Assembly: GCA_022843385.1 (NCBI GenBank)
Contig: JALHNT010000005.1
Location: 42,000-105,999 of the forward strand
Direction of reading: 5' to 3'
Origin: Anaerolineae bacterium
Lineage (GTDB): Bacteria > Chloroflexota > Anaerolineae > Aggregatilineales > Phototrophicaceae
Length of the DNA stretch: 64,000 nt
Positions 1,394 through 17,850 of this stretch are shown here, piece by piece (position 1 is the first letter of the stretch; the number at the start of each line of letters is the position of its first letter). The notes beneath the pieces are model-generated. The model ran no database searches. It saw only the letters and a list, made by a program, of their open reading frames with translations, and had not been told where the DNA came from. Position numbers and translations under genes: made by a program.

Positions 1394-2046
1394 GATTCAC
1401 AACATTCGTCAGATTCGTCAGATTCGCATCACTCCTTTTTGCGATTCGTGAATCTGGTGCCACTGTTTTCCCTCAAACGTTGCAACTGTTGCAAGTGTTG
1501 CAACTGCATTCGACCCATTTTATGCAACTGCATTTTGTGTCGTCGTCGTCGTCGGACAGACAAAGACGGAAAGACGAACACAGAGGACACAGAGGACACA
1601 GAGCGAAAACGGAGTGAGCCTGCACAAGATTCTGCAAATGCTGCAACTGCGAAAGCTGTTTTTTTGCAGATTGTGAGTTAGTCGTCAGTCGATAGTCATC
1701 AGTCATCAGAATAGTCCGAGAGAACACATTGCCGAAAATTCGTCAAATTCGTCAAATTCGTCAAAGTCAAACGTGCATTTTGTGACATTTGGCGTTTGGT
1801 CAGTAACGAGCAACGAGCAATGAATCATGAGTCTTTCCTCTGTTGACTGACGACTGATGACTGGCGACTTCCTGTCCTCAGCATACGCCCATTCGCCCCG
1901 TTACGGGTGAACTTTTGGTAAACTTTTTGGTACGACTTAAGGCGAGTCGGCGTTAACCTTTCTGCGGGAACAGGTAGGTTAAGGATGTTGGTGCAGGGTT
2001 AGAGAAGGGTTGAGAAAAATCAGGGTTAAGGGAGCAGAAAAGGATG
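1394..2046. repeat. Modular non-coding repeat, copy A
   Basis: A ~650 bp gene-free stretch sharing ordered blocks with 17312-17850. The blocks are: GATTCAC...GTGAATC enclosing 9-bp repeats of ATTCGTCAG; a TTGCAACTG 9-bp repeat; TTTTGTG followed by a (CGT)n run and GGACAGACA; ACACAGAGG repeats; TTCGTCAAA repeats ending in GTGCATTTTGTG; and a well-conserved core at about 1892-2046. The core has a CCCGTTACGGG hairpin, AACTTTTGGTAAACTTTTTG and a TTAACCT/AGGTTAA stem (1953-1959 with 1976-1982). The short ORFs here are translations of low-complexity repeats and are not believed. Bases 1198-1393, also gene-free, hold only a CACAGAGG-type stretch. Confidence 0.8.
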
Positions 2047-2353: not shown

Positions 2354-2569
2354 CTAGGTCTTCAGTTTATCAGCCCACTCCTGGATCTGTTTGTTGGCTT
2401 CATCCTTGGTGATGCCGTACTTCTCCTGGATTTTGCCCGCCAGGATTTCACGGTTGCCGTTGGCCTCCAGGAGTTCATCATCGGTCAACTTGCCCCATTT
2501 TTTCTTCAGGTCGCCCGTGAATTGCTTCCACTGACCACTGACCTTGTCCCAGTTACCGTTTGTTGCCAT
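2354..2569 (-). CDS. CsbD family stress protein
   Basis: Small hydrophilic protein of 71 residues, of the size and sequence expected for the CsbD family ('WDKVSGQWKQFTGDLKKKWG', then 'DDELLEANGNRE' and 'KYGITKDEANKQI'). In Bacillus csbD belongs to the sigma-B general stress regulon; its biochemical role is not established. The start is the ATG of MATNGNW because AAGGA lies 8 bases upstream; the track start six codons earlier lacks such spacing. It is the last of three minus-strand genes (YflT-type, lmo0937-type, CsbD) that together look like a stress module, although gaps of over 100 bp separate them. Confidence 0.88.
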   Translation of the reverse strand: MATNGNWDKVSGQWKQFTGDLKKKWGKLTDDELLEANGNREILAGKIQEKYGITKDEANKQIQEWADKLKT

Positions 2570-2704
2570 GATCATTTTCCTTTCCATTCATCGACTAAAT
2601 CTTACAGGCAGATAGAGTTTGCCCGTTCGCTTGATAGCTAAGGAGGACATTCCCCGAAAGGTGAAACTGATGACGCGAGAGCAGATGTTGCTCTTCGCGC
2701 CCCA

Positions 2705-17311: not shown

Positions 17312-17850
17312 GATTCACACGATTCGTCAGATTCGTCAGATTCGCATCACTCCATTTTTCAATTCGTGAATCATGGAGACCCGTTTTCCCTCAAATATTG
17401 CAAAAGTTAGAAATGTTGCAACTGTTAGAACTCCTTTTTGTGCAACTACCCGTTTTGTGTCGTCGTCGTCGTCGGACAGACACCGACAAAGACGGAAAGA
17501 CAAACACAGAGGACGCAGAGAACACAGAGAGAAAGCAGAGCAAATCTGCGTAAACTTCGTCAAAGTCGTCAAAGTCGTCAAAGTCGTCAAAGTCAAAAGT
17601 GCATTTTGTGAACATTTCGGTCAATCCTGATTCAGAACGATTGGGACGAACGATTGCGCGAGCGATTCGCGAACTGTCCCCACGACAAGCATATGCCCGA
17701 TTACCCCGTAACGGGTGAACTTTTGGTAAACTTTTTGGTACGACTTAAGCCGAGCCAGCGCTAACCATTCTGCGGGAGCGGGATGGTTAAGGCTGTCGGC
17801 GGGGGGTTAGAGAAGGGTTGGGGAAAATGGGGGTTGAGGGAGCAGGATAG
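17312..17850. repeat. Modular non-coding repeat, copy B
   Basis: Shorter copy of the element at 1394-2046 with the blocks in the same order. These are GATTCAC + ATTCGTCAG repeats + GTGAATC, TTGCAACTG, (CGT)n + GGACAGACA, CACAGAGG repeats, and a run of CAAAGTCGT 9-bp repeats ending in GTGCATTTTGTG. The core is at about 17697-17850. The core stem here is TAACCAT/ATGGTTA (17762-17768 with 17783-17789), while copy A has a T-A pair where this has A-T. The rest of the gap holds an inverted CGCTAAC/GTTAGCG at 17152-17178 just after the preceding gene. Confidence 0.8.

Follow-up and report, generated by a model that had tools for sequence, protein, structure and literature searches.

A modular non-coding repeat with two copies in the window

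A modular non-coding repeat occurs twice in the window, that is, in the whole stretch of 64,000 nucleotides of Anaerolineae DNA that was analysed, and the locus raises the question of what is conserved in it and why. The preliminary description had pointed to selection on RNA or DNA structure, based on a core hairpin that kept its pairing between the two copies (A and B). By direct reading, both copies were confirmed at the positions given below, with their common block order and the 9-bp units ATTCGTCAG, TTGCAACTG, ACACAGAGG, and TTCGTCAAA. A 29-mer common to the copies, TGAACTTTTGGTAAACTTTTTGGTACGAC, occurred exactly twice in the window with 0 expected (100 shuffles), and the similarity is therefore far beyond chance. 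The core part ended abruptly at 2035 (GGGAGC) in copy A and at 17843 in copy B. The features, all on the plus strand, are as follows.

1394..1454, plus: copy A head hairpin module, GATTCAC..(ATTCGTCAG)n..GATTCGTGAATC (read from sequence; a 19-mer of the module is found 106 times in the genome)
1480..1768, plus: copy A mosaic of 9-bp tandem modules, TTGCAACTG, GTC(GTC)n, ACACAGAGG, and TTCGTCAAA (read from sequence; like modules lie upstream of about 60 of 80 genomic copies)
1880..1886, plus: copy A left conserved motif AGNNTAC (A, G, T, and A invariant in 80 of 80 copies)
1905..1934, plus: copy A near-invariant 30-bp core GGGTGAACTTTTGGTAAACTTTTTGGTACG, half-sites with T-tracts between (copy search, alignment, and locus-pair constraint test)
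1935..2035, plus: copy A right part, TAACC...GGTTAAG and repeated GGTT motifs, with a sharp 3' end GGGAGC (80-copy alignment; sharing falls to zero beyond)
17312..17372, plus: copy B head hairpin module (sequence and count of the module 19-mer)
17373..17660, plus: copy B 9-bp tandem modules (sequence; modules upstream of genomic copies)
17688..17694, plus: copy B left motif AGNNTA (80-copy alignment)
17713..17742, plus: copy B 30-bp core, same as that of copy A (shared 29-mer and genome core search)
17743..17843, plus: copy B right part with GGTT motifs and 3' end GGGAGC (80-copy alignment)

By eye, a gene for a CsbD-like small stress protein adjoins copy A on the minus strand (window 2360-2570).

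About 80 copies of the element in the host genome

The host assembly (G000) comprises 7.85 Mb in 117 contigs, with 95.7% completeness and 7% contamination. A 24-mer of the core had 81 matches in it when up to 3 mismatches were allowed, including 68 exact ones, and the reversed control gave 0. The two copies first described are thus members of a family of about 80; the search beyond the window returned many copies but not the additional covarying pairs that the preliminary description had named as support. The head module ATTCGTCAGATTCGCATCA occurred 106 times in the same genome.

An alignment was made of eighty host copies, each taken with flanks of at most 8 kb. Read in the orientation of the element, most copies followed the order of head, invariant AGNNTA, 30-bp core GGGTGAACTTTTGGTAAACTTTTTGGTACG, and right part. 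The head, present in about 60 of the 80 copies, spanned about 400-750 bp and combined 9-bp tandem units with small hairpin modules, while the right part read GAGTCGGCG-TAACC...GGTTAAG...GGGTTAGA.AA.GGTT...GGGTTGAGGGAGC up to a sharp 3' end. The element is asymmetric and 160 bp long, with a precise 3' end and a mosaic 5' end; no ORF was found inside it and no conserved gene adjacent to it. The core carried about 2 bits per column and the flanks far less, neighbouring positions varying by 10-25%. It can be read as half-sites GTGAAC, GGTAAAC, and GGTACG with 4-5 T between them. The GTT motifs of the right part had spacings of about 11, 16, and 20 bp in the host, compared with about 9-11 bp in relatives, and a spacing of about 11 bp would amount to roughly one helical turn.

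The core is constrained at single loci

In some copies the homology did not stop at the element but took in the sequence downstream of it (WD40 or TIR-TPR genes, RHS fragments), indicating that such loci arose by duplication. We compared 13 locus pairs with homologous flanks of 67-87% identity, not all of them independent because they have members in common, and found 0-1 changes in the 30 core positions; the chance of zero core change at the flank rate was 5e-6 to 0.013 per locus pair. Using a profile of the right part on 1.27 Mb of host sequence, we recovered 82 copies with an intact core, 4 of type 2, 1 of type 4, and two 3' fragments; none of the full-length copies had a decayed core, in a sample biased by the fact that most loci had been picked for their core. 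As judged from sequence comparison, the diverged flanks around an unchanged core and the lack of decayed copies speak for maintenance at each locus.

RHS-repeat-like gene fragments of varying length were also seen by eye to abut the 3' end of the element and to stop inside it (L062, L067, L079, L094, L096, L104, L116, and L125).

Related species carry their own cores at shared sites

The host core was absent from 60 relatives at up to 3 mismatches, but diverged elements with other cores were present. At least six congeneric species carried 25-98 copies each with their own core or cores (98 in G003, 88 in G004, 86 in G015, 75 in G010, 28 in G001, and 25 in G011). The core was homogeneous within each related species and its own even at orthologous element sites; in G015, 57 of 86 copies were exact, and one core type was common to G003 and G004. 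With a sequence model, the family was found in 9 of the 17 genomes of the genus and was absent or unrecognisable in the other 8, and 81 other genomes of the taxonomic family gave two borderline hits only.

Between species, 26 orthologous site pairs were identified; the cores differed in 23, and three were G003-G004 pairs. Half of the sampled G010 sites (8 of 16) were orthologous to G015 sites, and at one of these pairs (L366 in G010 and L271 in G015) 42 of the 45 bases just left of the core were equal and 5 of the 30 core bases differed. Host and G015 had only 2 of about 79 sites in common. At most shared sites, similarity in the non-core part was not clearly higher than at unshared ones, which means that replacement at fixed sites also happens, and recurrent insertion at hot spots fits this result as well.

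The named genomes with the family are Anaerolineae MAGs, except for one labelled Bacteroidetes. This MAG, JAPUDW01 (L348, L350, L366, L368, L370, and L372), contains the Anaerolineae repeat family together with syntenic loci, and its title is therefore probably wrong. The core was absent from IMG/VR, and a viral origin was rejected.

Genes and GC skew around the elements

By neighbour clustering and Pfam scans, the elements of G015 were surrounded by ordinary housekeeping genes, and the host neighbours showed some enrichment of WD40, TPR, and TIR, at least in part due to gene duplicates carrying the element along. Cargo or an adjacent partner gene was rejected on these grounds. Within 8 kb, no second partial ends were detected other than neighbouring full copies and short matches to the 3' end.

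In G015 (L285-L344), GC skew on the element strand rose from about 0 before the element to +0.054 after it, over at least 7.5 kb (paired p about 2e-6), and this step was independent of gene strand. The skew was mildly positive on both sides of the element in the host, and the element strand agreed with the local skew in both genomes. A replication-strand marker was considered and rejected: the G015 skew flips over tens of kb, and the element is therefore not a simple replichore marker.

A proposed docking platform for a putative DNA-binding protein

We favour the explanation that these dispersed DNA elements form a multi-site docking platform for a putative sequence-specific DNA-binding protein, with a probability of roughly 0.55. 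Such a platform is in keeping with the linear invariance, the constraint seen at individual loci, the homogeneity specific to each species, and the half-sites with helical spacing. The protein would recognise the 30-bp core through inverted half-sites of the GTGAAC/GTTACC type separated by A/T tracts of 4-5 bp, and the right part would offer further helically spaced GGTT sites. Its specificity would differ between the species of the genus, and within a genome almost every site would have a core that matches it. Sites would stay at their locus over speciation and be gained and lost across longer times, and the family may also spread as a non-autonomous repeat with slow turnover. Very short-tract gene conversion could be an alternative homogeniser of the cores. 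We infer the protein, and with it any identity and role, from its sites; no protein binding the core was found, which counts against this explanation, as do the 8 genus genomes in which the family is absent or unrecognisable and the small number of sites common to distant species. As a first guess by analogy, its role may be chromosome organisation or segregation, as for the sites of Noc or MatP.

The matS sites of MatP are chromosome-organising sites, tens of which are scattered over the chromosome for one protein. The NBS of Noc are dispersed specific sites for one DNA-binding protein, and the specificity of ParB/Noc can switch in evolution (PMC7383237). The present elements resemble both in that one chromosome carries tens of specific, dispersed sites, and the switchable specificity of ParB/Noc is a further likeness. 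However, NBS and matS are short single palindromes, whereas the element here is 160 bp long and combines several half-sites with a repeat-rich head, and its protein is putative. A palindromic core of the Noc/MatP kind was looked for: the 81 host copies had half-sites around A/T tracts, and a simple palindrome, GGGTGACCAWWTGGTACG, was seen in G001 only. The STRR and LTRR of cyanobacteria are short intergenic tandem repeats of fixed length. In Beggiatoaceae, the TAACTGA repeats also consist of short intergenic tandem units of fixed length (PMC4679880). The heads with 9-bp units and the tails with 7-bp units found here are comparable, but those arrays have no invariant core attached.

A possible non-autonomous mobile repeat

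The same family might be a non-autonomous mobile element, MITE- or REPIN-like, whose core is recognised by a transposase acting in trans and which has no host function. We regard this as possible but somewhat unlikely. It would account for the spread of tens of intergenic copies restricted to one genus and for their turnover, distant species having largely different sites; the precise 3' end, the mosaic head, the existence of 3' fragments, and the strand bias relative to GC skew in the host flanks also agree with it. A purely selfish repeat does not explain the lack of decay, since decayed full-length copies were nearly absent (in the core-biased sample), the core stayed constrained after locus duplication, and sites persisted between related species. 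Neither an internal ORF nor a conserved neighbour gene was found, no terminal inverted repeat was seen, and, with the 5' end not fixed, no target duplication or empty site was shown.

A REPIN consists of two short palindromic REPs in inverted orientation, which form a hairpin beside a RAYT gene (PMC3116915). In being dispersed extragenic repeats in genome-specific families, with an inferred co-evolution with a trans-acting protein, the present elements are similar to the REPIN/RAYT system (PMC3116915). They differ in being 160 bp long and asymmetric, with no conserved hairpin (-1.71 kcal/mol; helices not kept), and no stand-alone Y1/RAYT transposase or RAYT adjacent to the core was found in the host. 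Y1_Tnp matched only once in the host, within a frame of 863 aa at C6:138764 that is 11 kb away from the closest core. An IS200/RAYT-type transposase was rejected because similar large Y1 frames occur in genomes with and without the element, with no correlation. Such large frames, with a Y1-transposase domain and lengths of up to 1474 aa, as at G000:C6:138764-139057, are conserved in the genus and seen in nearly all of its 17 genomes. The mobile repeat and the docking site are compatible if the element is a repeat that spread and was then retained.

Possible transcription control at gene ends

The elements could instead control transcription, either as terminators or protein roadblocks at gene 3' ends or as promoter operators of one regulon. 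Of 60 genes upstream of the element in G015, 45 are oriented towards it, and the left boundary of the element often lies just past a stop codon. In the host, however, the orientation of neighbouring genes was mixed (26 +-, 16 -+, 13 ++, and 12 --), the downstream genes in G015 had no family in common, and no consensus hairpin with a U-run was present. We therefore consider this explanation quite improbable.

No covariation in the named helices

The stem first described, TTAACCT (1953-1959) with AGGTTAA (1976-1982) in copy A, was read at these positions, and the change from T1959-A1976 in copy A to A17767-T17784 in copy B was present, so that both sides had indeed changed between the copies. 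However, the corresponding alignment pair (88-105) was a standard pair in only 20 of 72 copies, and the covariation between two copies is a coincidence at a highly variable position. A second hairpin, CCCG/CGGG, was likewise found in both copies (CCCG-TTA-CGGG at 1897-1907 in A and CCCG-TAA-CGGG at 17705-17715 in B), but the two named helices showed no excess covariation. Over 72 host copies, 73.4% of their cells were paired versus 73.1% in shuffles, with 4 pairs changed on both sides versus 2.6 +/- 0.9 in shuffles and a covariation score of 0.057 versus 0.053. RNAalifold gave -1.71 kcal/mol and no consensus RNA fold, and mutual information revealed no column pair in the core with a stem signal. 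The Rfam search had no match up to E=1, in line with the statement that the repeat belongs to no known RNA class. With Rfam, mutual information, RNAalifold, and pair counting all negative, RNA structure was rejected for the named stems.

The preliminary description had itself named a many-copy alignment with no excess of covariation as refuting its reading, and by that criterion the RNA-structure reading is refuted. Its claim of selection rather than mere duplication held for a multi-copy non-coding element under selection, but not for RNA or hairpin structure as the signal; the conserved feature is linear DNA sequence. A structured non-coding RNA, to which short inverted repeats in individual copies still point, is thus extremely improbable given 72 copies with no covariation, no consensus fold, no Rfam match, and a core invariant in its linear sequence.

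Other core types and their distribution over contigs

In the host, heads not followed by the core described above (type 1) led to type 2, GGTGAACTTTTGGTAAACCTTTTGTTCTA, type 3 with TAGAACAAAAAGGCTA, or type 4, GGTTACCAAAAGGTACGACTTA. Type 1 and other types occurred on one contig in 11 pairs, versus 34.8 +/- 4.6 in label shuffles, and in 9 pairs, versus 28.9 +/- 4.0, when only contigs of at least 90 kb were counted. The contigs in this split (type 1 versus types 2, 3, and 4) are C2, C15, C20, C22, C26, and C29 against C1, C5, C23, and C27 of G000. Several contigs carried both type 1 and other types, GC was equal, and no near-identical duplicate loci were seen. Contamination as the source of several core types was rejected on this basis, and co-binning of two genomes is unlikely for the same reasons. 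The split hints at chromosomal territories.

Extending the docking platform, we tentatively propose a chromosome-marking system with about 80-100 long asymmetric sites per genome, in which the specificity of the protein and nearly all cores would have switched between sister species and the other core types would mark territories; as a whole this proposal is rather unlikely. A 30-bp sequence that is near-constant at 80 unlinked loci and differs by sister species would be a natural genome-wide record of a switch in protein-DNA specificity. Identification of the protein would make it testable whether selection, conversion, or replacement lets dozens of sites change in concert. The territories, unless produced by the assembly, would suggest a system of chromosome organisation in this phylum, Chloroflexota, for which to our knowledge almost none have been described. 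Core type 3 (L193, L195, L199, and L200) reads TTGTTAAGTTGCACGGGGAAAC...GTTTCCCA...TAGAACAAAAAGGCTAYC..TGTCAAGCCCC and is a distinct element with LexA-like GAAC half-sites.
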